This document shows positions 3,075 through 40,383 of a stretch of 45,615 nt of DNA, in pieces. Positions within the stretch are counted from its first letter, which is position 1. The number at the start of each line of letters is the position of its first letter. The stretch lies in assembly GCF_018704065.1 (NCBI RefSeq), contig NZ_JAGUQP010000023.1, positions 1-45,615 of the forward strand, read 5' to 3'. The DNA comes from Desulfovulcanus ferrireducens. Lineage in GTDB: Bacteria > Desulfobacterota > Desulfovibrionia > Desulfovibrionales > Desulfonatronovibrionaceae. The notes beneath the pieces were generated by a model. It saw nothing but the letters and a program-made list of their open reading frames with translations. It was not told where the DNA came from and did no database searches. Made by a program: the position numbers and the translations under genes.

Positions 3075-3665
3075 TTGAATACGATTTGCGGAGTGGTCTT
3101 GGCTGGGGGAAAAAGTTCCCGTCTTGGACAGGACAAGGCCAAGTTGCGTTTTAAGGGCCAGGACTTGTTGCAAAGAAGTGTTGCTTTGGTTCAGGAGTTT
3201 TGTCCTGTAACTTATGTAGTTGGCAGGGATGCCAGGGAGCATGAATTGAATGTGCCCTGGATGTTGGATGATATTCCAGGCATAGGCCCAATGGGTGGAA
3301 TTTTGACTGCACTTAAAAGGCTCAAGCGGCCATGCCTGGTTCTTTCTTGCGACTTGCCACTTTTATCCAGAGATATACTGGCGAGACTTATTGAAGTCAG
3401 GAATAGAATTGGATACCAAAAGTTAATGACCACTTACTTACAGGGAGAAACAGGTTTTATTGAGGCCTTGGTAGCCATCTATGAATATAAATGCGTAGAA
3501 TTTTTGCAAAGGTCTTTTAAACGAGGTTGTTATAAACTCAGTCAAGCCATTGAATCAGAGAATCGTCACCATATCCCTTACAGTGAGGCAGAGAGAAAAT
3601 ATTTCTTAAATATAAATTATCCCCGGGATATTCAGTTGTTGAAAGTGTTGGATAGTAAAGGATAA
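3075..3665 (+). CDS. mobA: Molybdenum cofactor guanylyltransferase MobA
   Basis: Transfers GMP from GTP to Mo-molybdopterin to make the guanine dinucleotide cofactor used by formate dehydrogenases and related enzymes. The 196-residue protein opens with the nucleotide-binding signature VVLAGGKSSRLGQDKAKL, then has DDIPGIGPMGGI and the metal-binding LSCDLPLL. The start appears to be TTG at 3075; no nearby in-frame ATG preserves the N-terminal motif, and the Shine-Dalgarno is weak. Its position after fdhE-fdhD fits a role in formate dehydrogenase maturation. Confidence 0.9.
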   Translation: MNTICGVVLAGGKSSRLGQDKAKLRFKGQDLLQRSVALVQEFCPVTYVVGRDAREHELNVPWMLDDIPGIGPMGGILTALKRLKRPCLVLSCDLPLLSRDILARLIEVRNRIGYQKLMTTYLQGETGFIEALVAIYEYKCVEFLQRSFKRGCYKLSQAIESENRHHIPYSEAERKYFLNINYPRDIQLLKVLDSKG

Positions 3666-3755
3666 GCAAAAAGATAAAAAAATATGAGTGCTTGGTGAGT
3701 GATGGGCGTCCCGCGTGCCAGGTTTCGTGCATTACAGATTAAGAATCGCGAAATT

Positions 3756-4322
3756 ATGAAGTTAAATTTAATATTCGTGGCTTGGATATTTTTCGTTCTT
3801 GTTGGCTTGGAGAATTTGGACGCAGGAGCCATCTATTATTTTTGTGATGAAAATGGTGTTTTTCACTTTACCGATTTGCCCTCTTCTGACTTATATCGGC
3901 CTTTTATTATTTTCAGCGACAAAAAGAATGACCAGACAAAAATCAATGAGATGATTAAGGTTTACAGTAAGCGCTATGGTCTGGATTATGATTTGGTGCG
4001 GGCAGTGGTCCAGGTGGAATCAGCTTATAAGCCAGAAGTCGAGTCCAGGGCCGGAGCGCAAGGGTTGATGCAGATTATGCCTCAGACCCAGGAGGAACTA
4101 GGGCTCAAATATCCCTTTGACCCCGCTTCCAATCTTGAAGCCGGGGTTCGCTATCTGCGGAGTCTAATTGACCGGTTTGGGGATGTCAGATTGGCCTTGG
4201 CGGCTTACAATGCTGGGCCGTCTAAAGTTGAAAAGTATAATGGTATTCCACCTTATGCAGAAACAAAACGATATGTACAGAAAGTGTTAAATATTTATTC
4301 GAAATTTAAAAGAAAAAGATAG
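3756..4322 (+). CDS. Lytic transglycosylase (SLT domain) with DUF4124-like N-terminus
   Basis: Predicted exported murein-cleaving enzyme. The ATG at 3756 gives 188 residues starting with a clear signal peptide (MKLNLIFVAWIFFVLVG...). A short DUF4124-like segment follows (IYYFCDENGVFHFTDLP), then the SLT domain with catalytic Glu in VVQVESAYKPEVESRAGAQG and the signatures GLMQIMPQT and ALAAYNAGP. Upstream in-frame codons back to 3699 would mask the signal peptide, so I prefer the internal start even though its Shine-Dalgarno is poor. Such proteins are often linked to pilus, secretion or division functions; the partner here is not evident. Confidence 0.88.
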   Translation: MKLNLIFVAWIFFVLVGLENLDAGAIYYFCDENGVFHFTDLPSSDLYRPFIIFSDKKNDQTKINEMIKVYSKRYGLDYDLVRAVVQVESAYKPEVESRAGAQGLMQIMPQTQEELGLKYPFDPASNLEAGVRYLRSLIDRFGDVRLALAAYNAGPSKVEKYNGIPPYAETKRYVQKVLNIYSKFKRKR

Positions 4323-14998: not shown

Positions 14999-15176
14999 TT
15001 ATTGTTTATTGACTGTTTGTTTCCAATTCGGTAATTCTCTGAAATTCTTAGAATAATTATATGGACGGGATTTAATTCGGACTTTAGATGTAATTTGTTA
15101 TTCTTTTTTTTGTGAGATATTAAAATTATGTGAGAACTTTTAATATTGAGACCCTCAAACTACAATCTATGGAATA

Positions 15177-16232
15177 ATGCTCTGTTTAGGAATTGAGACT
15201 TCATGCGATGAAACGGCTTTGGCCTTGGTGGATAAGGGAAAGCTGATTGGCGAAAGTATTGCTTCGCAAATAGATATCCACTCAATATTTGGGGGGATTG
15301 TGCCGGAAATAGCTTCCAGGGAACACCTGCGCACATTAGTCCCCTTGTTTGATGATCTGCTCCAAAAGTGTGGAGTGGAGACAAAAGATATAGACCTAAT
15401 TGCTGTTGCAAGAGGACCAGGCCTTCTTGGTAGTCTTTTAGTCGGCTTGGGTTTTGCCAAGGGTTTGGCCTTAGCCCTAGATAAGCCTCTGGTTGGGGTT
15501 AATCATCTATATGCCCACTTGCTGGCAGCTGGTCTGGAGCAAGAAATCGAGTTCCCGTCTTTGGGGCTTTTGGTCTCAGGCGGACATACGCATATTTATT
15601 TCATCCGATCGCCGTTTGATTTTGAACTGCTGGGCAAAACCCTTGATGACGCTGCCGGTGAGGCTTTTGATAAGGTGGCTAAGTTCTTGAATTTGCCATA
15701 CCCGGGAGGGGTTTATATTGACCGGTTCGCACAGGAGGCTGATCCTGATCCTGGTCTTTTCCCCAGGCCTTATGTTGACAACGACAATTTAGACTTTAGT
15801 TTTAGTGGTTTAAAGACTGCGGTGGCCAATTTTCTTAAAAAGAATGATCATTTGGTATTGAAAAGCATGGATGAAGTTGCTCCCGGATTTACGCCTGGCC
15901 TTGAATTGGCAGCGGTTTGTGCCTCCTTTAACTGGACTATAGCAGAAACTTTAAAGATTAAGTTAAGCCGAGCCTTAAAAAGAGTTAAACCTAGAAGTAT
16001 TATTTTAGCTGGAGGAGTTGCGGCCAACACTTTGATTCGCCAGACTATAGAAGATTTGTGCCAGAAAGAGAATCTGCCCCTGGTTCTCCCAAGTAAAAAA
16101 CTATGTACTGATAATGGGGCCATGATAGCTTACTATGGAGAAATATTGGGGGTGGCGGGGTTGAAGCATGGCTTGGATCTTGAGGCAATTCCTAGAGGCA
16201 AGAAGATCCCCTGGGATTATATAAAAGATTGA
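15177..16232 (+). CDS. tsaD: tRNA N6-adenosine threonylcarbamoyltransferase
   Basis: Catalytic subunit of the complex that makes t6A at position 37 of ANN-decoding tRNAs, transferring threonylcarbamoyl from TC-AMP. The 351-residue protein begins [17 protein letters not shown] and has the iron/metal-binding HLYAH (near 110), [25 protein letters not shown] and [10 protein letters not shown], all diagnostic of the Kae1/TsaD family. The RBS is weak; a 9-bp inverted repeat (ATATTAAAA/TTTTAATAT) lies about 30-60 bases upstream. The gene is single and ordinary. Confidence 0.95.
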
Positions 16233-16280
16233 AAGAGTGCCCGTCAGCAAAGGTTTTTTTAAAAATGGTCTTTTTAAGAC

Positions 16281-16575
16281 CTCAACTTTCTGACATGATT
16301 AACATCCTCAAATTACTACACAATTGAAGAGTGCATTTTCTGAAATGCATTACAAACGGGTTGGGGAACACATCTTGGCGAAGATTGCGGAAGTGCTGTG
16401 CATAGGGAGGTTATTCCATCGAACTTTCGAAACCCATCATAACAACAGAAAAGGCATGAAGTAATATTCTCATGACTAACCCCATTATGCACAGCCCGCA
16501 AGCAAGCCTTAGATGTGTCCAAGTCTTTGTTAGCATTGAAGAAAATGCGCTCGCAAATTAACTCAGAAAGTTGAG
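16281..16575 (-). mobile_element. Repeat family A, copy 2 (295-bp MITE-like, with target duplication)
   Basis: Near-identical inverted copy of 65-359. Both ends carry the 13-bp terminal inverted repeat: CTCAACTTTCTGA at 16281-16293 and TCAGAAAGTTGAG at 16563-16575. The flanks share an exact direct repeat TTAAGAC (16274-16280 and 16576-16582), the expected mark of transposition. It has no coding capacity. With copy 1 it forms a 16-kb inverted pair that spans pilD to tsaD and could recombine to invert that region. Confidence 0.88.
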
Positions 16576-16623
16576 TTAAGACTCCGAAACTATCGCTAAA
16601 GAGACTGTGGCCGGACCTTTTAT

Positions 16624-16890
16624 CAACTCAATTTCCAAGGTTTATTTCAGTCTTGGTTTCTTTCATGCTGGTACAAATACTTGGACCTGATTCTCAAAAC
16701 TTGCTTGCGGCCATAGCATAATGGGACACTTTGGGTAAACAAAATATTCTTTTATTATCGATAGTTATGGCAAATAGTCCCCGATATTTAGCTTTGTCGC
16801 CCCGAGGCTCTGTTCTTTCACAAGCATCACTAAGATTGGGTTACCCAAGCCGTTTGTAATGCATTTCAGAAACCAGGACTTTCAATCAGC
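16624..16890 (+). repeat. Repeat family A, diverged copy 3
   Basis: A decayed copy in the orientation of copy 1. Matching landmarks include ACTTGCTTGCGG, GCATAATGGG and CCGTTTGTAATGCATTTCAG (16849-16868), which also occur in copies 1 and 2 in the same order. The ends are poorly conserved, so boundaries are approximate. It is an older insertion in the accessory patch upstream of icd. Confidence 0.7.
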
Positions 16891-16949
16891 GCTTAAAATG
16901 TGGTTTAGCCACAGACTCTTAAGATATTACCCAGTACCAAAATATGGCT

Positions 16950-17110
16950 CAATGAGCGTTTTTGTAGAAAAATTGATTAAAGTAGGCATTGCCCTGACCA
17001 GAACCAGGGAACTGGAAAATTTTTTGGAGCTCATCCTGGGGGCTAGGGCTGGAATTTGTGCGGACTATGGTTTTAGGGGGGATAATAACTATACTTATTT
17101 CAATGCCAGG
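16950..17110 (+). pseudogene. Fragment of a GAF-type sensor domain gene
   Basis: The plus-strand reading FVEKLIKVGIALTRTRELENFL followed by LELILGARAGICADYGF resembles the start of a GAF domain as found in sensor kinases and HD-GYP proteins, where the helix is followed by a segment ending in ADxGTLY. The reading then degenerates, with no start or downstream domain. I interpret it as a broken remnant. An open frame runs from 16859 to 17176, but its first part lies in the repeat family A copy. Confidence 0.4.
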
Positions 17111-17140
17111 CCTAATGACTGGCGCTATTTGTCCTGCGAG

Positions 17141-17345
17141 CGGTTAAAATTCTCAACTATTTTCCAGTATAATTGATTTGTACCTTTTATCACTTTTTTT
17201 GTACCTCATATCGAATTTGAGGTGCAAATTTTCAAGAAGGTTTATATTAACTTTTTGAAATTCCACAAGGAAAAATTGACAAGACAAGCTATTGGCTAAA
17301 ACCTTGACCCCAAAAATTCTGCAAAATCAACTGGTGGTGGCATTT
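17141..17345 (+). repeat. Second copy of the acn upstream region and gene start
   Basis: Aligns without gaps over most of its length to 20611-20815, at a constant offset of 3470 bases. Landmarks: TTTGTACCTTTTATCACTTT, the palindrome at 17198-17228, AAATTTTCAAGAA and ATTCCACAAGGAAAAA. It runs through the acn start codon into the first 16 codons or so. This shows that a segment upstream of acn was duplicated. The copies now bracket icd and its flanking repeats. Confidence 0.88.
17198..17228. promoter_or_regulatory. Palindrome in the duplicated acn upstream region
   Basis: Inverted repeat TTTGTACCTCA-N9-TGAGGTGCAAA, the counterpart of the palindrome at 20668-20698 upstream of acn. Both half-sites are kept in the two copies despite sequence drift around them. 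It could be an operator; no regulator is known here. Confidence 0.45.
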
Positions 17346-17393
17346 TTGAGTAAACTGGTGAGGGCGTATTTAACTCAAAAAAGTGAAAATTAG
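17292..17393 (+). pseudogene. Truncated acn remnant
   Basis: Starting from TTG at the position of the acn ATG, this reads MAKTLTPKILQNQLVV, matching the aconitase N-terminus MAKTLTQKILESHLVV. It then jumps to a stretch containing ACTGGTGAGGGCGTA, which in intact acn lies about 580 bases further in (21345-21359) and in another frame. The interior has therefore been lost, and the frame ends at TAG 17391-17393. This is a dead, internally deleted partial copy. Confidence 0.8.
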
Positions 17394-17416
17394 TTACGAC
17401 TTACTATATTTATAAG

Positions 17417-17621
17417 CCTGAATCCGTGAATTGAATCCTTACCTCGTTATAACACTGACCATGTTGAACGCCAGAGCGGACTACTTCTTTCGCACGTGCA
17501 CGGACACAACTATTATGACATTGTGTTCGGCTTTCAAAGCAATAGGCATTTTTTTTGCTGAGGTGCGGGAGCCCTGTCAGAGCTTTGGGGCGTTTGACAT
17601 GAAGTAATTCACGGATGGAGG
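17417..17621 (+). mobile_element. Repeat family B element upstream of icd (205 bp)
   Basis: Begins CCTGAATCCGTGAATT and ends AATTCACGGATGGAGG, imperfect terminal inverted repeats matching those of the 9509-9796 element. The interior is related to 19879-20069 (shared order of motifs such as TTATAAC, CAATAGG and a GCGGGAG/GCGGGGAG block). Its right end lies 26 bases before the icd start, so it inserted directly upstream of the icd ribosome-binding site. Flanking TTATAAG and TTAAAAC are only a weak target duplication. A minus-strand reading frame inside is probably not a gene. Confidence 0.7.
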
Positions 17622-17647
17622 TTAAAACCTTTTCAAGGAGGACATGT

Positions 17648-19870
17648 ATGTCTAAAAAAGCGACTATCGCGTGGACCAAGGTCGATGAAGCTCCAGCTCT
17701 TGCAACATATTCTTTATTGCCGATAGTACGGGCAATGACCAAAGACGCCAACCTGGAAATTGAGCTTAGAGATATTTCATTGGCTGGAAGAGTTTTGGCT
17801 CAGTTTCCTGATTACCTGCCAGAAGAGCAAAGAGTGCCTGATGATTTAGCCTTTCTTGGTGAGCTTGTCTTTAAGCCGGAAGCAAATATTATGAAGCTCC
17901 CCAACATCTCAGCATCTTTGCCCCAACTTAAAGAAACCATTCGTGAGCTTCAATCTCAGGGTTATGCTTTGCCAGATTACCCAGAAGACCCAAAAACTGA
18001 AAAGGAAAAAGAAATAAAAGCACGCTATGATAAATGTATAGGTAGTGTGGTTAATCCTGTTTTAAGACAGGGGAATTCAGATCGAAGACTGGCTCAGGTT
18101 GTCAAAGAGTTCGCCAAAAAACATCCTCATAGAATGAGAGATGTCGATGCTAAATCCAAAAGTTATCTTGCTCATATGGTTAGTGGGGATTTTTATGAAA
18201 ATGAAAAATCTGTAACAATTGAAAAAGACACTAAAATTAAGTATGTTTTTACAGATAATAGTGGTCAGGAAACAGTTTTAAAAGAAGTTGAGATTGGAAA
18301 GGGAGATGTTGTTGATGCAACTTTCATGAATAGACAAAAGCTGCGTGATTTCTTTTCTCAGGTAGTTGAAGATGCTAGAGAAAAAGATATTCTTTTTTCC
18401 TTGCACGTCAAAGCTACAATGATGAGAGTTTCTGATCCTGTTATCTTTGGTGACGCTATCAGGGTTTACTATAAAGAATTGTTTGAGAAATACAATAAAG
18501 AGTTGGAGGAGATTGGATTTAATCCTAACAATGGATTGTCAGATCTTGAGGCAAGATTAAGCAAATTGCCAGAAGATAAGCAAGGCGAGATCAAGAAAAC
18601 TTTAGAAGATATTTATGCCAGGCAACCAAGGCTGTATATGGTTGACTCAGATAATGGAATTACCAACTTGCATAGACCTAATGATGTAATTATTGATGCT
18701 TCTATACCTGCAGTTATTAAAAATGGTTTAAAAGGCTGGGGGCCATCTGGAGAAGTTGACGATTGTGTTATTACTGTCCCTGATAGAAGTTATGCTACAA
18801 TGTATCGTGAAATAGTGGAAGATGTTAAAGTGAGAGGGCAGTTTGATCCAACTAAAGTAGGTAGTGTTGCTAATGTTGGCTTAATGGCAATGAAAGCTGA
18901 GGAATATGGTTCGCACGATAAAACATTTTTTCCTCCTGCAGATGGCACCATAAAAGTTGTTGATGGAGATGGAAAAGTATTACTCGAGCATTCTGTAAAT
19001 GAAGGAGATATTTATAGAAGCTGTATTACCAAAGATAAGGCAATTAGAAATTGGGTTAAGCTTGCTGTAGATAGAGCGGAAGAGAGTGGGTGGACTTTAG
19101 TTTTTTGGCTTGATTCATTTAGAGCCCACGATAGAGAAATCATTAAGAAGGTTAAAGAAGAATTACCTAAATATAACCTTGACAATATTGATTATTACAT
19201 CAAACCACCTCAAGATGCTATGAAGTTTACTTTAGAAAGGTTTAGAAATGGTGAAGATACTATTGCAGCAACAGGTAATGTCTTAAGAGATTATTTAACA
19301 GACTTGTTTCCCATTATTGAGGTTGGAACAAGCGCTAGGAGCCTTTCTATTGTTCCACTTATTGCCGGAGGAGGGGTGTATGAGACAGGTGCTGGAGGTA
19401 GTGCGCCCAAGCATGTTCAACAGTTTGTCAAAGAAGGACATTTGAGATGGGATAGTTTAGGAGAGTTCTTGGCTTTTGCTGAATCATTACAACTTGCTTA
19501 TAAGCAGTCTGAAGATAAAAAATTGCTTATTATAGCAAATGCTTTGTCTAAAGCTATTGGTAAATATCTTCATAACGATAAAACACCAAAGAGAAAGGTA
19601 GGAGAACTTGACACCAGAGGAAGCCATTTCTATCTTGCACTTTACTGGGCCCAGGCTCTGGCTGAACAAACTGAAGATGAGCAACTGGCACAAAAATATG
19701 CCAAAGTAGCTAAAGAGCTGGAAACAAATGAAGCAAAAATATTAGAAGAGATCCAGGCAACAGAAAGATCTCCTAAAGACATTGGCGGATATTATCATCC
19801 TGATAAAGAGAAAACTGAACAAGCCATGCGGCCAAGTAAAATTTTTAGGGATATTATTGACGCCCTTTAA
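17648..19870 (+). CDS. icd: Monomeric NADP-type isocitrate dehydrogenase
   Basis: Interconverts isocitrate and 2-oxoglutarate + CO2 with NADP(H); in a reductive TCA cycle it would run as a carboxylase. The 740-residue length, the N-terminus KKATIAWTKVDEAPALATYSLLPI and internal stretches such as TRGSHFYLALYWAQALA identify the large monomeric (type II) family, unrelated in length to the usual 400-residue dimers. AAGGAGG at 17635-17641 supports ATG at 17648. The gene is flanked by two same-orientation repeat elements and a duplicated acn leader. Its codon use (AAA, TTA, GAT, ATT) looks more AT-rich than that of acn/acl, consistent with separate acquisition. NADP specificity is family inference. 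Confidence 0.95.
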   Translation: MSKKATIAWTKVDEAPALATYSLLPIVRAMTKDANLEIELRDISLAGRVLAQFPDYLPEEQRVPDDLAFLGELVFKPEANIMKLPNISASLPQLKETIRELQSQGYALPDYPEDPKTEKEKEIKARYDKCIGSVVNPVLRQGNSDRRLAQVVKEFAKKHPHRMRDVDAKSKSYLAHMVSGDFYENEKSVTIEKDTKIKYVFTDNSGQETVLKEVEIGKGDVVDATFMNRQKLRDFFSQVVEDAREKDILFSLHVKATMMRVSDPVIFGDAIRVYYKELFEKYNKELEEIGFNPNNGLSDLEARLSKLPEDKQGEIKKTLEDIYARQPRLYMVDSDNGITNLHRPNDVIIDASIPAVIKNGLKGWGPSGEVDDCVITVPDRSYATMYREIVEDVKVRGQFDPTKVGSVANVGLMAMKAEEYGSHDKTFFPPADGTIKVVDGDGKVLLEHSVNEGDIYRSCITKDKAIRNWVKLAVDRAEESGWTLVFWLDSFRAHDREIIKKVKEELPKYNLDNIDYYIKPPQDAMKFTLERFRNGEDTIAATGNVLRDYLTDLFPIIEVGTSARSLSIVPLIAGGGVYETGAGGSAPKHVQQFVKEGHLRWDSLGEFLAFAESLQLAYKQSEDKKLLIIANALSKAIGKYLHNDKTPKRKVGELDTRGSHFYLALYWAQALAEQTEDEQLAQKYAKVAKELETNEAKILEEIQATERSPKDIGGYYHPDKEKTEQAMRPSKIFRDIIDAL

Positions 19871-19878
19871 ATTAATTC

Positions 19879-20069
19879 CCTGAATCCGTGAATTTATCTA
19901 AATCATAACCGTTTTGAATATCAGAAAGAGGGCTGTCCTTCCCGCAGCTAATAGAATACGGCTGTATTAAATGAGTTTCAGTTTTAAAACAATAGGGCTT
20001 CTTCCCTGGGTAGCGGGGAGACAGTTCCAACTCAGACGGTATAGATTTGAAATGATTCGCGGCTTCATG
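19879..20069 (+). mobile_element. Repeat family B element downstream of icd (about 191 bp)
   Basis: Starts 8 bases after the icd stop with CCTGAATCCGTGAATT, identical over 16 bases to the start of the 17417 element and in the same orientation. The right end (GATTCGCGGCTTCATG, 20054-20069) is a degraded inverted match. Read on the minus strand, both copies give short frames with similar blocks (KKNAYCF versus GKKPYCF, both ending FTDSG); this shows relatedness but is not evidence of a gene. No clear target duplication is seen. Confidence 0.68.
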
Positions 20070-20078
20070 TTGATAAGC

Positions 20079-20125
20079 TAGACAAAGCACTTCCTTTCAA
20101 AGGAAGTGCTTTGTCTATTTTTTTT
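20079..20125 (+). terminator. Intrinsic terminator of icd
   Basis: A perfect 18-bp stem, TAGACAAAGCACTTCCTT (20079-20096) with AAGGAAGTGCTTTGTCTA (20100-20117), a 3-base loop and a following run of T residues. It lies just past the right end of the family B repeat, about 210 bases after the icd stop. It should separate icd transcription from the acn operon. Confidence 0.92.
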
Positions 20126-20159
20126 AACTTTTTGTTTAAGTGTTAGTTTTATTTAGCTT

Positions 20160-20235
20160 AACTCCTTGAGTTTTCTTGTGCTTCGTTATAATCCTTGACC
20201 ATTCTGAACACCTGAGGGGGACTGTCCCTGTGCAC
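20160..20235 (+). repeat. Partial family B repeat
   Basis: Contains TTCGTTATAAT, TTGACCATTCTGAAC and GGGGGACTGTCCC in the same order as the left half of the 17417 element (TCGTTATAAC, TGACCATGTTGAAC, GAGCGGACT). Only this half is recognisable, so it is a truncated or diverged copy. Boundaries are approximate. Confidence 0.5.
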
Positions 20236-20296
20236 CAATATATTCGTCAGAAAATGGAATTTTAAAGAAAGTATATAGCTCTACATGGTGTTAATT

Positions 20297-20567
20297 GTGC
20301 AGTCGGGTAAGACTATTAGACTTGGTGCTTCGGATGACAGTTTGGTCATTGAAGCGCAGCTCCCCATGCAAGATGTGCTTTATGTGCAGCCCGGATGCTT
20401 TTACCTGTAACTTTAATACGGGATTATCTTGAATGGGAATGACAAAAATATCGCCATTTCCCGGTATGATTGTGCTGGTCAATACTAAGACAGGCGAGCG
20501 TACCATCCTGGAATATCTACCTGATCCCTACCTGGAACGATTTCCCCACGCTTTTACTGAAAGCTGA
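20297..20567 (+). pseudogene. Remnant of an HlyD-family type I secretion adaptor (C-terminal part)
   Basis: Two plus-strand frames together resemble the C-terminus of HlyD-type membrane fusion proteins. The first reads GKTIRLGASDDSLVIEAQL followed by PMQDVLYVQPG; the second reads PGMIVLVNTKTGERTILEYL and continues to a natural TGA at 20565-20567. The match to the family pattern (LVIEA..., PGM...TG.RT.LEYL) is good, but the region between is frameshifted and shortened, and nothing upstream encodes the rest. It is the debris of a lost type I secretion system. Confidence 0.6.
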
Positions 20568-20610
20568 ATTGTAACCAACCAAAATGACCGGAGCTAATTG
20601 TCCCGTGAAC

Positions 20611-20762
20611 GGTAAAAATTCACAACTATTTTTCCTGCATAATAGGTTTGTACCTTTTATCACTTTTTTTGCACCTCATATCGAATTTGAAGTGCAAATT
20701 TTCAAGAATGTTAATATTAATTTTATTAAATTCCACAAGGAAAAAAATGAGGAGAGAAACTA
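20611..20762 (+). promoter_or_regulatory. acn leader region, duplicated at 17141
   Basis: The 150 bases before acn are conserved in the decayed copy 3470 bases upstream, which marks them as one functional unit. They contain a palindrome (20668-20698), an AT-rich stretch TTAATATTAATTTTATT that could hold a -10 region, and a GAGGAGAG ribosome-binding site in front of ATG. No unambiguous sigma-70 pair can be assigned by eye. Confidence 0.55.
20668..20698. promoter_or_regulatory. Palindromic candidate operator upstream of acn
   Basis: Inverted repeat TTTGCACCTCA-N9-TGAAGTGCAAA, centred about 80 bases upstream of the acn start. The half-sites TTTG(C/T)ACCTCA and TGA(A/G)GTGCAAA persist in both the live and the dead copy. 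A -35-like TTGAAG overlaps its right half. It could bind a dimeric regulator of the rTCA operon. Confidence 0.5.
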
Positions 20763-22700
20763 ATGGCCAAAACCTTGACCCAAAAAATTCTGGAAAGTCA
20801 TCTGGTCGTGGGCGAGTATGAGCCTGGGAAAGAAATAGGCATTCGCATTGACCAGACTTTGACTCAGGATGCCACTGGCACCATGTGTAACCTTCAGTTT
20901 GAGGCTATGGGTATCCCCCGGGTAAAGACTGAACTTTCGGTTAGTTATGTTGACCACAACACTATTCAGGCTGGTTTTGAGAATCCTGATGATCACAAGT
21001 ACCTACAAACAATGGCAGCAAAATACGGGATGATTTATTCCCGGCCTGGCAATGGTATTTGTCATCAGGTACATCTGGAGAGGTTTGCTGCTCCTGGCAA
21101 AACTCTGCTTGGTTCTGACAGTCACACTCCTACGGGTGGCGGCATTGGTATGGTCAGCATCGGCGCTGGTGGTCTGGATGTTGCCGTGGCCATGGCAGGC
21201 GGGCCTTTTTATTTAACATGTCCCAGGGTGATTCGCATTAACCTTACAGGTAAGCTGCCTGAGTGGGTAAGTGCTAAAGATGTAATTTTAAAAGTATTGG
21301 AGATCTTTGGTAGCAAAGGCAACGTTGGTTGCGTTTTCGAATATACTGGTGAGGGCGTAAAGACGCTAAGCGTACCTGAACGCGCAACGATTACCAATAT
21401 GGGGGCAGAGTGCGGTGTAACATTTTCTATTTTCCCCAGCGATGAAGTGACCAGAGAATTTCTAAGGGCACAGGCCAGGGAAACGGATTGGGTGCCACTG
21501 GCTGCTGATGAAGGCGCTGTTTATGAAAAAGAGGTGGAAATCAATTTAAGTGAGCTGGAGCCGATGATTGCCTGTCCGCACAACCCTGGTAATGTGAAGA
21601 AGCTGGCAGAAGTGGAAGGACTGGCTGTTGATCAGGTTTGCATTGGAAGTTGCACCAATTCTTCTTACCGCGATCTTATGATCGTTGCTGAAATGCTGGA
21701 TGGCAAGGTTTGTCATCCGGATGTGAGCTTTGTTGTTGCTCCTGGTTCCAGGCAGGTTATGCGTATGCTGGCAGAGAACGGCGCTCTGGATAAATTGATT
21801 GCTGCTGGCGCCAGGATAGCAGAAAGTGCGTGTGGTTTTTGTATCGGCAATAGTTGTGCCCCGCGTAGTAACGGCGTGTCCTTGCGGACCAGCAACCGCA
21901 ATTTTCTGGGGCGTTGTGGGACAAAGTCAGCAGATGTTTATCTGGTTAGTCCTGAAGCTGCTGCTGCTGCCGTTATTACCGGCAAAGTTACTGACCCGCG
22001 TGCTCTGGAGATAAGCTATCCTGAGATTGTTCAACCAGAGATGTTCTTGATTGACGACACCATGTTTATCGCTCCGTCACCAGAGCCGGAGAAGATTGAA
22101 ATTTATCGTGGCCCAAATATTGGCGAGCCTCCAGTAAATGACCCCATGCCGGAAAAGATAGATGGCGTGGTAACCATCAAGGTTGGTGATGAGATTACCA
22201 CCGACCATATCATTCCTGCGGGCAGCCGGATGAAATATCGTTCCAACGTGCCCAAATACGCAGAATTTGTCTTTGAGGTCCTGGACCCTGAATTTCATAT
22301 CAGGGCCAAGGCCTATAAAGAGAAGAACAAACACAATATAATCGTTGGTGGTCTGAGTTATGGTCAAGGTTCTTCCAGAGAACATGCGGCAATTTGTCCC
22401 ATGTATCTGGGAGTTAAGGCCGTTATTGCCAGATCTTTTGAACGCATCCACGCGGCTAATCTGGTGAATTTTGGTATTGCTCCGCTGTTATTTATCAATG
22501 AGGCCGATTACGAGGATGTTGCTCAGGGTGACGAATTGGAGATAGCGGATATGCGGGAAAAGATTAAGGCTGGCCAGGATCTGACAGTTGTGAATAAAAC
22601 CAAAGGTAAAAGTTTTACCGTAACTTATCAGCTCTCAGACCGTCAGAAAGAGATCCTTTTGGCTGGTGGAACACTTAGCTATATGAAAATGAAAGCGTAA
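20763..22700 (+). CDS. acn: Aconitate hydratase, Aquifex-type
   Basis: Isomerises citrate and isocitrate through a [4Fe-4S] cluster. The 645-residue length corresponds to the shorter aconitase type found in Aquifex and related bacteria, not the 850-900-residue AcnA/AcnB. Cluster cysteines are visible as CIGSC (293-297) and CGFC (357-360), with the substrate block DSHTPTGGGIGMVSIGAGG and the C-terminal swivel domain GGLSYGQGSSREHAA. RBS GGAGAG precedes ATG. It is first in an operon with aclB and aclA, so its product chemistry feeds citrate straight to ATP-citrate lyase. Confidence 0.95.
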   Translation: MAKTLTQKILESHLVVGEYEPGKEIGIRIDQTLTQDATGTMCNLQFEAMGIPRVKTELSVSYVDHNTIQAGFENPDDHKYLQTMAAKYGMIYSRPGNGICHQVHLERFAAPGKTLLGSDSHTPTGGGIGMVSIGAGGLDVAVAMAGGPFYLTCPRVIRINLTGKLPEWVSAKDVILKVLEIFGSKGNVGCVFEYTGEGVKTLSVPERATITNMGAECGVTFSIFPSDEVTREFLRAQARETDWVPLAADEGAVYEKEVEINLSELEPMIACPHNPGNVKKLAEVEGLAVDQVCIGSCTNSSYRDLMIVAEMLDGKVCHPDVSFVVAPGSRQVMRMLAENGALDKLIAAGARIAESACGFCIGNSCAPRSNGVSLRTSNRNFLGRCGTKSADVYLVSPEAAAAAVITGKVTDPRALEISYPEIVQPEMFLIDDTMFIAPSPEPEKIEIYRGPNIGEPPVNDPMPEKIDGVVTIKVGDEITTDHIIPAGSRMKYRSNVPKYAEFVFEVLDPEFHIRAKAYKEKNKHNIIVGGLSYGQGSSREHAAICPMYLGVKAVIARSFERIHAANLVNFGIAPLLFINEADYEDVAQGDELEIADMREKIKAGQDLTVVNKTKGKSFTVTYQLSDRQKEILLAGGTLSYMKMKA

Positions 22701-22710
22701 GGAGAGTATC

Positions 22711-23985
22711 ATGGCACAACGCGGCATTAGAGAATATGATGCAAAAAGAATGCTGGCAAATTATCTGAAAGATAATCTGCCGGAGATTGCTTTTGAATTT
22801 AAGGGCGTTTTGGTTACACCTGAAACAGATTGGGACGTCCTGGTAAAAGAAAATCCGTGGCTGACTACTGAAAAGTTGGTAGCCAAGCCGGACCAATTGT
22901 TCGGAAAGCGAGGCAAGCATGGTCTGGTCCTGGTAAATGCAAGCCTGGATGAGGTAAAGGCCTGGATTGGCGAAAGAATGAACAAGGACGTGACCATAGG
23001 CCAGGTGACCAATGAGTTGAACTGCTTTTTGGTCGAGCCATGTGTTCCACATGAGAAGGAATATTATCTGGCCATGACCACGGAAAGAGAAGGGGATAAG
23101 ATTTTTATCTCTGCTCATGGCGGAGTAGATATCGAAGAGGTTTGGGATACAGTCAATGAAGTATTTATTCCAATTCTTGCCAAAGAAAATATTGAGGAAA
23201 AGATTGCTCAGGCCATTCCAGAAGAAATAGAGGATAAAGAAGCTGTGACTCGTCTTGTAAAGGCACTATATGACTTCTTCGTTGATTATCATTTTACCTA
23301 CCTAGAGTTTAACCCCTTTGTTTTAGAGGGGAACAAGTTTTTCCCATTGGATGCAGTTGCCCGCCTGGACGATACCGCTCAGTTCGAGTGTGTGGAGAAG
23401 TGGGGCGATCTTACCTTCCCAACACCTTTTGGACGCAAGAGCACTCCGGAAGAGGCATATGTCAAGCAGTTGGATGCCAAGAGCGGTTCATCAATGAAAC
23501 TTACCGTGCTTAATCCTAAAGGGCGGATCTGGACAATGGTGGCCGGCGGGGGCGCCAGTGTTGTTTATACCGATACCATTTCTGATCTTGGTGGAGCGCA
23601 GGAACTGGGCAACTACGGTGAATATAGCGGTAACCCCACCACAGACGAGACCTATGAATATGCAAAGACACTTCTTGATCTTATGACCAGGGAAAAAGAT
23701 CCCCAGGGCAGGCCCAAGGTGCTGATTATAGGCGGTGGTATTGCCAATTTTACTGACGTGGCCAAGACCTTTGACGGCATTGTTAAGGCCTTGGAAGATT
23801 ATACCGAGAAGTTAAAGGCCGTGAATGCCAAGATTTTTGTACGCAGGGGTGGCCCCAACTATGAAAAGGGTCTCGCCAAAATCAAGGATGCGGGCGAAAG
23901 GTTAGGTCTTAGCATTGAAGTTTACGGTCCAGAGGCCCACATGACCAGAGTTGTTAAACTGGCCTTGGAAGAACAAGCTGCTTAA
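22711..23985 (+). CDS. aclB: ATP-citrate lyase, small (beta) subunit
   Basis: With AclA, cleaves citrate + CoA + ATP to acetyl-CoA and oxaloacetate, the defining step of the reductive TCA cycle. The 424-residue protein resembles the ATP-grasp/SucC half of the enzyme: an N-terminal ATP-grasp region (REYDAKRMLANYL, KPDQLFGKRGKHGLV) and a C-terminal CoA-ligase-like part (MVAGGGASVVYTDTISDLGG, YGEYSGNPTTDETYEYAKTL). It starts 10 bases after acn with AAGGAGAG. Size and order match the green sulfur bacterial aclB-aclA arrangement. The GGGASVVYTD block is ACL-specific and argues against plain succinyl-CoA synthetase, which is encoded separately at 35834-37873. Confidence 0.94.
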   Translation: MAQRGIREYDAKRMLANYLKDNLPEIAFEFKGVLVTPETDWDVLVKENPWLTTEKLVAKPDQLFGKRGKHGLVLVNASLDEVKAWIGERMNKDVTIGQVTNELNCFLVEPCVPHEKEYYLAMTTEREGDKIFISAHGGVDIEEVWDTVNEVFIPILAKENIEEKIAQAIPEEIEDKEAVTRLVKALYDFFVDYHFTYLEFNPFVLEGNKFFPLDAVARLDDTAQFECVEKWGDLTFPTPFGRKSTPEEAYVKQLDAKSGSSMKLTVLNPKGRIWTMVAGGGASVVYTDTISDLGGAQELGNYGEYSGNPTTDETYEYAKTLLDLMTREKDPQGRPKVLIIGGGIANFTDVAKTFDGIVKALEDYTEKLKAVNAKIFVRRGGPNYEKGLAKIKDAGERLGLSIEVYGPEAHMTRVVKLALEEQAA

Positions 23986-23995
23986 GGAGGACACA

Positions 23996-25849
23996 ATGTC
24001 AAAACCGGAATATTGTTTGTTTGATAGAAATACCCAGGCCATTATTTATGGCTATCAGCAAAGGGCAATCCAGCGGATGCTGGACTTTGACTATATCTGT
24101 AGGCGCGAGACCCCCAGTGTGGCCGCCATTGTGGCTCCAACGCGTAAGAACGGTTACCATAAATGTTTTTTTGGCAACAAGGAAATCTTGATCCCAATTT
24201 ACAGGGAGTTTGATGAAGCTGTTGAAAAGCATGCAAATGCTGATGTAGTGGTCAATTTTTCATCCTATCGTTCTGCCTATCCCACCACTATGGATGCTCT
24301 GGCCAAGGACACCATCCGTACTGTGGCTATTATTGCTGAAGGCATCCCCGAAAGATATGCCCGTATAATCGCGGCTACAGCCAAAGAGATGAACAAGTGC
24401 GTTATTGGCCCAGCCACAGTAGGCGGAATTGCTGCCGGAGCCTTTAAAATAGGAAACTCAGCAGGAACCCTGGAAAATATTATTCGTTGCAAACTCTATC
24501 GTCCTGGCAGCGTTGCTTTTGTTTCTACATCAGGTGGTCTGTTTAACGAGTTGAATAATATTATTTCTCAGGCCACAAATGGAGTTTATGAAGGAATAGC
24601 TGTCGGTGGCGATTTATATCCTGGCTCGACCTTTATTGATCATTGTTTGCGTTATGAAGCCAATCCGGACATCAAGATGATGGTAGTCCTTGGTGAGCTG
24701 GGTGGTAAGAAAGAGTATGAAGTAATAGAGGCCATGAAGGCCGGTAGAATTACCAAGCCTGTTGTTGCATGGTGTACAGGTACCTGTGCCAAGCTTTTCC
24801 CGGGCGAGGTACAATTTGGTCATGCAGGCGCGAGGGCCGGCGATGATTCCGAGACCGCAGAGGCCAAAAACAGGGCCTTTAAGGAAGCTGGTGCCATTGT
24901 CCCCAAATCATTTGATGAGCTCAGGAAGGTCATCAGGGAAACTTTTGAGGACTTGAAGGCCAAGGGGGTTATTCCTGAGTTAGAGGAGCCTGAAGTTCCA
25001 CCTGTTCCTGAAGATTTTGCCGAGGCTAAAGCTAAAGGCAAGGTGCGCCGCGCAACCAGTTTTATCTGTACCATCAGCGATGATAGCGGCGAAGAAGCTA
25101 CATATAATGATATTCCCATTAGCTCGGTTGTCGAGCAGGGGATGGGTATTGGAGATGTCATTGGTTTGCTTTGGCTAAAATGCCGTTTACCGAAATGGGC
25201 TAGCGAATATATCGAAATGTGTATAAAGATTGTTGCTGATCATGGCCCCTGTGTCTCTGGTGCCCACAATGCTATCGTTGCTTCCAGAGCTGGAAAGGAT
25301 CTGGTTTCCTCACTGGCAAGCGGACTCCTGACGATTGGACCCAGATTTGGCGGGGCTATTGACGGCGCTGCCTATTATTTCCGCAAGTTCTGTGACGAAG
25401 GGAAAACTCCCAGGCAGATGGTTAACGAGATGAAGGCTGCCGGTACCTTGATTCAAGGTATTGGACATAAAATCAAGAGTGTACGTAATCCTGACAAGCG
25501 GGTTGAACTGCTTAAGAATTATGCCAAAGAGAACTTCCCTTCGACCAAATATCTGGACTATGCCCTTGAAGTAGAAAAGGTGACCACGGCTAAGAGGGGC
25601 AACCTGATTTTGAATGTAGATGGATGTATTGGGGTTTTGTTTGTGGATTTGCTGGCGAACTTAGGGTTCAGTTCAGAGGAAATCGGCGAAATCATTGATG
25701 CCGGAACATTGAATGCAGTTTTTGTTCTTGGCCGCAGTATTGGCATAATCGGTCATATTCTGGACCAAAAACGGCTCAAAGCCGGGCTTTATCGCCATCC
25801 AATGGATGATATCTTATATGCTACAGAGCCCCCACGCGAAGTACGCTAA
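23996..25849 (+). CDS. aclA: ATP-citrate lyase, large (alpha) subunit
   Basis: Carries the phosphohistidine and the citryl-CoA-cleaving domain. The chosen ATG (23996) follows AAGGAGG and gives 617 residues. The N-terminal part is SucD-like with the active-site His in FGHAGA (H276). The C-terminal part from about 360 is citrate-synthase-like, with DHGPCVSGAHNAIVASRAG, GPRFGGAIDGAAYYF and GIGHKIKSVRNPDKRVELL. The aclB stop is 10 bases upstream, so the subunits are made from one message. A perfect 11-bp hairpin 33 bases past the stop suggests that the acn-aclBA unit ends here. Length agrees with the roughly 608-residue Chlorobium AclA. Confidence 0.95.
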   Translation: MSKPEYCLFDRNTQAIIYGYQQRAIQRMLDFDYICRRETPSVAAIVAPTRKNGYHKCFFGNKEILIPIYREFDEAVEKHANADVVVNFSSYRSAYPTTMDALAKDTIRTVAIIAEGIPERYARIIAATAKEMNKCVIGPATVGGIAAGAFKIGNSAGTLENIIRCKLYRPGSVAFVSTSGGLFNELNNIISQATNGVYEGIAVGGDLYPGSTFIDHCLRYEANPDIKMMVVLGELGGKKEYEVIEAMKAGRITKPVVAWCTGTCAKLFPGEVQFGHAGARAGDDSETAEAKNRAFKEAGAIVPKSFDELRKVIRETFEDLKAKGVIPELEEPEVPPVPEDFAEAKAKGKVRRATSFICTISDDSGEEATYNDIPISSVVEQGMGIGDVIGLLWLKCRLPKWASEYIEMCIKIVADHGPCVSGAHNAIVASRAGKDLVSSLASGLLTIGPRFGGAIDGAAYYFRKFCDEGKTPRQMVNEMKAAGTLIQGIGHKIKSVRNPDKRVELLKNYAKENFPSTKYLDYALEVEKVTTAKRGNLILNVDGCIGVLFVDLLANLGFSSEEIGEIIDAGTLNAVFVLGRSIGIIGHILDQKRLKAGLYRHPMDDILYATEPPREVR

Positions 25850-25881
25850 TAAACATTCAATGTTAGGCTAGGCTATAAAAG

Positions 25882-25908
25882 CAATGCGGGGGATACTCCC
25901 CCGCATTG
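25882..25908 (+). terminator. Hairpin at the end of acn-aclBA
   Basis: Perfect 11-bp stem CAATGCGGGGG (25882-25892) with CCCCCGCATTG (25898-25908) and a 5-base loop. It is followed by only a short T-rich stretch (TATAAGTTTT), so termination may be partial. Confidence 0.7.
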
Positions 25909-25912
25909 TATA

Positions 25913-25995
25913 AGTTTTAAGTGTTAAGTTTTAGGTGTTAAGGGTGGAGATATGTATACGGTCCACACTACACTTAAAACTTAACACTTAAAACT
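25913..25995. repeat. Long intergenic hairpin between aclA and mdh
   Basis: Two 26-base arms (25913-25938 and 25970-25995) pair with one G-U exception across a 31-base loop. The arm is built of short repeating units, AGTTTTAAGTGTTAAGTT and so on. It immediately follows the GC-rich hairpin and ends about 25 bases before the mdh start. Similar low-complexity hairpins occur in other gaps of the window. Confidence 0.8.
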
Positions 25996-26019
25996 CTATA
26001 AAATAAAAAGAGGAGAAAG

Positions 26020-26952
26020 ATGCGCAGACATAAGGTATCGATTATTGGTGCTGGAATGGTAGGTTCTACAACTGCTCATTGTTTAGCTCAAAAAGATATA
26101 GCAGACATAGTATTATTGGACATCAAAGACGGCCTCGCTGCGGGCAAGGGTCTGGATCTATTTGAAGCCTCCCCAATTAATGCATTTCATGGTCAAATTC
26201 AGGGAACAACGGATTTTGCCCAGACCAAGGGCTCAGATTTAGTGGTGATAACAGCTGGTTTGCCACGTAAGCCTGGCATGTCCAGAAAGGAATTGATAGG
26301 AATTAACGGTAAAATTGTTGTCAATGCTGTTAAAGAGTGTATAAACTACTCACCAGAAGCAAAAATTATTATTGTCACTAATCCTGTTGATGCCTTGACC
26401 TATGCAGCCAAGAAACTAGTAGGTTTGCCACATTCTCAGATTATGGGTATGTCAGGGATGTTAGATTCTAGCCGGTTACGTACCTTTATCGCTATGGAAT
26501 TAGATGTTTCCCCTCAGGATGTTAAAGCAATGGTAATCGGAGCCCACACAGGGTCAAATATGATTCCTTTGCTTCGTCTAGCCAATGTTAATACAGTTCC
26601 ATTGCCTGAATTGCTGGAACAGGAAAAGTGGCCAAAGATAATAGATAGGACAAAGAACGCAGGAGCCGAGATAGTTAGTTTATTACAGATCGGTAGCGCC
26701 TATTATGCTCCAGCTGAAGCAACAACAGAGATGGTTGATGCAATTTTGCGTGATAAGAAGCGCCTTATGCCATGTTCCGTATGCCTGGAAGGAGAATATG
26801 GTTTGTCAGATTGTGCTCTTTGCGTACCTGTAATTTTAGGAAAAGAAGGGGTCGAGAAGGTTGTTGAGATAAAACTCACTGATGAAGAAATGCAAGAAAT
26901 GGTCAAAGGTGCTAATGTAATTAAAGAGATGATTGAGTGTATCGAGGTTTGA
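26020..26952 (+). CDS. mdh: Malate dehydrogenase
   Basis: NAD-linked oxaloacetate/malate interconversion; in the reductive direction it makes malate. The 310-residue protein is of the LDH-like MDH group: Rossmann GAGMVGSTTA, Asp34 at the end of beta-2 (VLLDI, favouring NAD), substrate arginines in LPRKPGMSRKEL (R83, R89) and SRLR, Asn in TNPVD. The catalytic His176 sits in VIGAHTGSNM instead of the usual GGHGDTM, so the flanking residues are atypical. RBS AGAGGAG. The hdrC-like gene begins 21 bases downstream, so mdh may lead the long operon that follows. Confidence 0.93.
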   Translation: MRRHKVSIIGAGMVGSTTAHCLAQKDIADIVLLDIKDGLAAGKGLDLFEASPINAFHGQIQGTTDFAQTKGSDLVVITAGLPRKPGMSRKELIGINGKIVVNAVKECINYSPEAKIIIVTNPVDALTYAAKKLVGLPHSQIMGMSGMLDSSRLRTFIAMELDVSPQDVKAMVIGAHTGSNMIPLLRLANVNTVPLPELLEQEKWPKIIDRTKNAGAEIVSLLQIGSAYYAPAEATTEMVDAILRDKKRLMPCSVCLEGEYGLSDCALCVPVILGKEGVEKVVEIKLTDEEMQEMVKGANVIKEMIECIEV

Positions 26953-26973
26953 TTAAATTCAAGGAGAAGAAAA

Positions 26974-27366
26974 TTGCGCGTTGCCTTAAATCTTCAGGAC
27001 AATTTACTGAAAAAGGTCGAGGAAATAAGTGGCGAAAATGTTTTTGCCTGCTACCAGTGCGGTAAGTGTTCTGCAGGCTGTCCAATGGTTGCAGAAATGG
27101 ACCTCTTACCCAATCAGGTGATCCGTTTTCTGCAGATTGGCGCGGGTGAGGCAGTATTAGAAAAGCGCACTATATGGCTTTGCGCCAGTTGTTTTACTTG
27201 CGCAGCTCGCTGTCCTAAGGGTGTAAATTTAGCCAGGATGATGGAAGGAGTACGTGTGACTATCTTGCGCCAGAGTAATGCCGATCAGGTTACCCCACCT
27301 GAAATGGTCAAAGAGCCACTTCCTCAGATAGCGTTAATCAGTGCCCTGCGCAAATTTACAACTTAG
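26974..27366 (+). CDS. hdrC: Heterodisulfide reductase subunit C-like iron-sulfur protein
   Basis: Cytoplasmic electron-transfer subunit with two [4Fe-4S] motifs: CYQCGKCSAGCP and CASCFTCAARCP. The 130-residue length is shorter than methanogen HdrC but normal for bacterial soluble versions. The start is TTG at 26974, preceded by AAGGAGA. With hdrB and hdrA following, it forms a complete HdrABC set with no MvhD or hydrogenase genes beside it. In this context its acceptor is more likely fumarate reductase or another rTCA redox enzyme than CoM-S-S-CoB; that is inference. Confidence 0.88.
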   Translation: MRVALNLQDNLLKKVEEISGENVFACYQCGKCSAGCPMVAEMDLLPNQVIRFLQIGAGEAVLEKRTIWLCASCFTCAARCPKGVNLARMMEGVRVTILRQSNADQVTPPEMVKEPLPQIALISALRKFTT

Positions 27367-40314: not shown

Positions 40315-40319
40315 GAAGC

Positions 40320-40348
40320 TTGACAGGGATAAGTCAGGGCACTATTTA
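40320..40348 (+). promoter_or_regulatory. Sigma-70-type promoter upstream of trxA
   Basis: TTGACA (40320-40325) and TATTTA (40343-40348) are separated by exactly 17 bases, lying 36-64 bases before the trxA start. It is the best sigma-70 match I see in the window and suggests trxA-trxB can be transcribed independently of the upstream flavoprotein gene. Confidence 0.6.
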
Positions 40349-40383
40349 TGAATCTTATAATAAAAATTGAGGAGGAGAATTAA

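Follow-up and report, generated by a model that had tools for sequence, protein, structure and literature searches.

A probable scar of tandem duplication and complementary gene loss in a reordered reductive-TCA operon of Desulfovulcanus ferrireducens

The icd-acn locus and its two leaders

The window, the whole stretch of DNA analysed here, is a 45.6-kb contig (45,615 nucleotides) of the 2.59-Mb genome of Desulfovulcanus ferrireducens (G000). Five of its genes, icd, acn, aclB, aclA and mdh, form the core of the ATP-citrate-lyase reductive TCA (rTCA) cycle. The genus was compared through this genome and a Desulfohalobiaceae metagenome-assembled genome (MAG), G001. In the available part of PMC11287216, the Wood-Ljungdahl pathway, not rTCA, is described in a Desulfohalobiaceae MAG. 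Comparison with G001 shows purifying selection on both icd and acn (icd, dN 0.087, dS 1.73, dN/dS about 0.05; acn, dN/dS about 0.04), and icd and the acn of this cassette type are each single-copy in G000.

Table 1. Features of the window from tsaD to mdh.
Feature	Positions	Strand	Evidence or remark
tsaD	15177-16232		
MITE-like high-copy repeat, about 295 bp, with terminal inverted repeats of about 20 bp	16281-16575		Between tsaD and the scar; inverted repeat I6
Putative N-terminal remnant of a GAF/HD-domain gene, left edge of the rTCA island	16964-17113	+	tblastn; syntenic position
Leader 1, upstream copy of the acn leader (core 17160-17240)	17114-17291	+	blastn, 86% to 20583-20762; three-way alignment with the G001 leader
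acn scar: acn codons 1-16 (TTG start), deletion, counterpart of acn 21332-21359	17292-17368	+	
Stretch between scar and icd, imperfect inverted ends GAATCCGTGAATT / AATTCACGGAT	17417-17622		
icd, monomeric NADP isocitrate dehydrogenase, intact	17615-19870	+	PF03971, TIGR00178 above cut-off
Intrinsic terminator-like hairpin closing the icd unit	20079-20117	+	18-bp stem, T8
HlyD debris: C-terminal part with internal deletion	20230-20567	+	68% and 81% nucleotide identity to intact HlyD of G001
Leader 2, intact acn leader	20583-20762	+	blastn; three-way alignment
acn, aconitase	20763-22700	+	PF00330; NF005558, TIGR01342 above cut-off
aclB, ATP citrate lyase citrate-binding/ATP-grasp subunit	22711-23985	+	PF16114, PF24948
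aclA, ATP citrate lyase CoA-ligase/citrate synthase-like subunit	23951-25849	+	PF00549, PF00285
aclA-mdh gap, site of icd in outgroups	25850-26019	+	Same adjacency in G001 contig C115
mdh, malate dehydrogenase	26020-26952	+	TIGR01763, NF004863 above cut-off

A blastn comparison of the window with itself aligns positions 17114-17340 to 20583-20811 at 85.6% identity over 229 nt (E 7e-69) and positions 17321-17368 to acn positions 21313-21359 at 81% over 48 nt (E 3e-4). The scar upstream of icd is made up of the acn leader with 16 acn codons, a deletion, and then an inner piece of acn; the deletion skips about 520 bases of acn and shifts the offset from 3471 to 3991. The original prediction of an acn leader and start repeated at a constant offset (spacing of the leader copies, 3470/3471), with a jump to an inner acn piece and with icd bracketed by the two copies, is borne out by these alignments. 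The leader and acn-start pair reaches a local alignment score of 161, against a maximum of 30.5 among 200 dinucleotide shuffles, and the inner piece a score of 29 against a shuffle maximum of 21 (n = 500); once its overlap is removed (17341-17400), the inner piece is weaker, its score being reached by 1 of 500 shuffles. The E values and shuffle scores rule out a chance likeness of AT-rich DNA, as had been anticipated.

The copied start codon, also part of that prediction, holds for the acn start region as a duplicated segment and not for the codon itself, which is now TTG where acn has ATG (the M of MAKTLTPK). The Shine-Dalgarno-like GAGGAGA of acn is broken to GACAAGA in the scar, whose open frame runs from TTG (17292) to TAG (17393), 33 codons. 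The stretch at 17417-17622, which separates the scar from icd, has a left end that recurs at 19879-19894 and in two further places of the genome.

Substantial matches to the leader were found, among 41 genomes searched, only in G000 (two places) and G001 (one place, 84%); three others of the 41 contain pieces of 32-53 bases. Having two places only in G000, the leader is neither a mobile nor a multi-copy element, and the lack of any Rfam match in 15000-27000 makes it no known RNA family there. A conserved palindromic operator was considered and set aside: an imperfect 14-base inverted repeat is present in both window copies and by eye is not kept in the G001 copy. Changes private to leader 1 occur at 1 of 80 core sites versus 13 of 133 sites outside the core (p 0.019, the core boundaries having been chosen after the alignment was viewed), and no plus-strand terminator-like site was found between leader 1 and icd. 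Given the conserved core and the clear path to icd, leader 1 may still drive icd as a candidate promoter, so that this earlier suggestion stays plausible. A sigma-70-like match at 17144-17173 is by itself no evidence for it, since 17 such sites are observed versus 11.9 expected. Most likely, icd with leader 1 now forms one unit and acn-aclB-aclA with leader 2 another, each under a copy of one control region.

Gene order in outgroups, the island and the sister genome

The ancestral order was sought in a scan of named genome contigs carrying acn, which gave 80 loci. In 39 of them aclA shares the strand of acn, in 31 it is complete, and 30 are testable, having besides a complete aclA an icd match or 800 or more bases beyond it (L045 was left out of the order count as too short). 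In 22 of the 30, from Desulfofervidaceae, Thermoplasmatota and Cloacimonadota, icd is the next cassette gene after acn-aclB-aclA; the eight without it are L055, L061, L068, L082, L086, L114, L121 and L122. Spacing between aclA and icd is mostly 3-99 bases, with one 8-base overlap and with 554-572 bases in the Desulfofervidaceae loci L046 and L047. In these two, the Desulfofervidaceae loci long enough to tell, mdh comes after icd.

Trees of acn, aclA and icd group the window with Desulfofervidaceae (support 100 or 100/100), and G001 joins this group in the acn and icd trees; aclB, compared by identity only, gives 77-79%. The acn tree was built without L116 (343 residues; length limit), and in the icd tree L204, L217 and L223 lie on very long branches outside the group of interest and are probably wrongly picked frames. 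In a sample of 395 genomes from the phylum, the closest icd sequences are 75% and 72% identical, both from one family (f44) and coinciding in the tree with those of L046 and L047; the next is 59%. Within the family of D. ferrireducens, icd of the window type occurs in 2 of 18 genomes, G000 and G001 only, and acn in the rest of the 18 is 52-56% identical at best, G010 and G017 having only weaker matches. The genus carries a foreign-looking acn-aclBA (20763-25849) nearest to Desulfofervidaceae, and the 52-56% family-type acn was not found in G000.

Because outgroups place icd after aclA, with concordant phylogeny, the order icd / acn-aclB-aclA-mdh of the window is, on this comparison, derived, and the cassette is best read as having arrived in one piece, icd following aclA. 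The original prediction that the duplication opened a site for icd fails at this point, given that outgroups already carry icd after aclA (followed by mdh in L046 and L047).

The left edge of the rTCA island was placed by synteny. A GAF/HD-domain gene stands between tsaD and a trxA homologue in two other genomes (G004, G007; the G007 protein has Pfam GAF and HD domains). Positions 16964-17113 match about the first 60 codons of this gene by tblastn (E 0.001-0.002, 35-37% identity); the match extends to 17167-17170, which was taken as overextension into the leader. The stretch 16924-17113, with no Pfam match, had seemed unrelated before the comparison with that gene. Leader 1 starts where the remnant ends, and the trxA side resumes near 40319-40350. 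By this alignment an rTCA island of about 23 kb interrupts the tsaD-trxA locus in G000. The island (within 16232-40350) also carries 2-oxoacid:ferredoxin oxidoreductase-type genes.

The MITE-like repeat beside tsaD, its ends set by alignment of six copies, recurs in at least 39 other places of G000 at 95-97% identity (40 of 254 candidates scored). It has a second window copy at 71-359 on the reverse strand and apparent target duplications of about 7 bp. Seven contigs, the window's included, begin with this repeat; G001 has only weaker or short matches to it.

In G000 this HlyD survives only as the debris before leader 2. The debris stops, at its own stop codon, about 16 bases before leader 2 and is separated from icd by about 360 bases that include the terminator and repeats. 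This debris, lying between icd and leader 2, fits a reading as the duplication junction. No HlyD was found upstream of leader 1, as is explained by the left edge of the island, which cuts into the GAF/HD gene there; a search of 16924-17111 for remnants of HlyD or ABC genes gave none.

In G001, an intact HlyD precedes icd (contig C152), leader-acn-aclB-aclA lies on contig C40, and aclA adjoins mdh without icd on contig C115. If the duplicated unit had HlyD ahead of its leader, both the HlyD debris at leader 2 and the intact HlyD before icd in G001 would be expected. The HlyD-icd gap of G001, 204 bases long, is collinear with the G001 leader, with a score reached by 0 of 500 shuffles. Against 1158 GC-matched intergenic windows, the gap score is reached by 0, 32 (strict) and 0 windows under three scorings, and the scores summed over three leaders by 3, 53 and 3. 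A nhmmer profile search did not find a leader remnant in this gap, so the claim is one of pairwise scores, which are suggestive of a remnant. For the duplication sought in relatives, G001 offers one substantial leader match and this suggestive second trace.

Two REP-associated tyrosine transposase-like genes, 71% alike, lie beside the acn and icd loci of G001 (L007 5463-6380, L036 4583-4826; NF047646 is below cut-off for the L007 gene) and may have moved these loci. A frame after tsaD in G001 (L190 3180-4069) has by eye a GCCTGCAAAAAGGGACTTTTTGCAGGC-like repeat at both ends.

A route by duplication and loss, and its rivals

Direct observations are the repeated leader with its acn scar, the order of the genes in outgroups, the HlyD debris and the aclA-mdh adjacency common to both genomes. 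We consider it probable, at roughly two chances in three, that the scar was left by a tandem duplication followed by complementary gene loss, which reordered the rTCA operon. In the proposed history, an ancestor of the genus would have carried HlyD-leader-acn-aclB-aclA-icd-mdh, a cassette also carried by Desulfofervidaceae, and a segment from within HlyD through icd would have been duplicated in tandem. Copy 1 would then have shed aclB and aclA entirely and acn for the most part, retaining its leader and icd, and copy 2 would have shed icd, retaining leader-acn-aclB-aclA beside mdh. The order leader 1-icd / HlyD debris / leader 2-acn-aclB-aclA-mdh would finally have become fixed, in G000 inside the former GAF/HD gene.

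Given the outgroup order, deletion of acn-aclBA from one copy places the leader directly before icd, and a doubled [HlyD 3' end-leader-acn-aclB-aclA-icd] with alternate loss gives exactly the order of the window, each gene being intact once afterwards. A second direct copy of part of the segment persists (17114-17368 versus 20583-20811 and 21313-21359). We infer the tandem state, the order of events and the promotion of icd transcription by leader 1. The lost genes are represented by the acn piece in copy 1; complete deletion would leave no remnant elsewhere. No aclB or aclA remnant was found between scar and icd, in neither G000 nor G001 does a trace of icd remain between aclA and mdh (the G000 gap score against icd is reached by 413 of 500 shuffles), and no undecayed tandem duplication is known among the genus genomes compared (G000, G001). 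A fuller account, in which the duplication and complementary loss split the operon, selection keeps the duplicated leader and with it a control element common to icd and acn-aclBA as separate units, and the two species resolved the same duplication differently, one keeping the leader and the other nearly erasing it, is possible and is offered tentatively.

The dates suggested by the leaders and by the gene order conflict. Over 213 aligned sites, leaders 1 and 2 differ at 29, leader 2 and the G001 leader at 43, and leader 1 and the G001 leader at 46. The contrast of 29 with 43 gives p 0.09, and outside the core 16 versus 23 of 84 sites differ (p 0.27). Private changes number 26 in the G001 leader versus 11 in leader 2 (p 0.02). 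The small divergence between the leaders and the more numerous private changes of G001 suggest a duplication after the split of G000 and G001, and the evidence leans toward one no older than that split, whereas the loss of icd from between aclA and mdh, common to both genomes, suggests one before it. Gene conversion between the tandem copies could reconcile the two.

The same divergences bear on the other routes by which this locus could have formed. The leader and the first ~600 bases of acn might have been copied to a place before icd after icd had moved upstream by some other route, so that icd captured the acn promoter. The closer likeness of the two leaders to each other would fit copying that took place after icd was lost from between aclA and mdh, and no piece of aclB or aclA survives before icd. 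This route leaves unexplained, however, both the HlyD debris after icd, directly before leader 2, and the putative trace of a leader ahead of icd in G001, and it requires two events where duplication requires one and deletions; we regard it as unlikely. Still less probable is that another cassette copy, different in part, came in from a relative and recombined beside the first, with decay of both. The cassette groups with another family, the region is repeat-rich, and the cassette interrupts the tsaD-trxA locus in G000, all in keeping with such arrivals. Against them, the two leaders of G000 resemble each other more than either resembles the G001 leader, which is what copying inside the lineage should give, and acn of the cassette type and icd are each present once.

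The original prediction had the start of acn duplicated first and icd inserted later between the copies, which do bracket it. With icd following aclA in most of the outgroup loci, and with matching phylogeny, icd would instead have been a member of the duplicated unit, and we give its later insertion very little credence. It is better seen as the gene retained from copy 1. As for the duplication or reciprocal exchange originally proposed, the former is supported and the latter finds no specific support. Tandem duplication with complementary loss is the reading carried forward below.

Comparison with known systems

Gene order in bacteria changes fast, and the route of a change is usually inferred from the orders before and after it. 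At this locus, scar, junction debris and ancestral order can be set beside a sister genome that was resolved differently, which makes a duplication-loss route testable step by step. Such a route offers an operon a way to split with both halves retaining the same promoter. No operon scar of this kind was found described in a limited literature search, which says little beyond its reach.

A close parallel is the SNAP model (Selection during Niche Adaptation; Brandis and Hughes 2020, PMC7055797), outlined in the available part of the paper as duplication, different losses from each copy and a rearranged order; of these, that part gives only the first two steps (duplication and divergence) as reported in natural isolates. 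In a follow-up on 163 order changes (PMC8046335), as far as its available text goes, the precise mechanisms could not be determined. The locus resembles SNAP, so outlined, in its duplication, differing gene loss from the two copies and new gene order. The difference is one of scale and of evidence: SNAP, in that same outline, involves large segments and positive selection, whereas here a single small operon appears with its end state and scar, known from sequence alone. The scar is, in our reading of the alignments, a sequence footprint of this duplication/asymmetric-loss model.

The Desulfofervidaceae-type cassette acn-aclB-aclA-icd(-mdh), found in L046, L047 and 20 further loci, has the same genes and the same phylogeny, all intact; in the window, by contrast, icd precedes acn as a separate unit, headed by a copied acn leader and closed by a terminator. 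In mitochondrial tandem duplication-random loss, residual duplicated control sequence accompanies a change of gene order by complementary loss. The window shares with it the leftover duplicated control sequence and the reordering of genes by complementary loss, and differs in that the setting is a bacterial operon and the duplicate that survives is a leader instead of a tRNA or control region.
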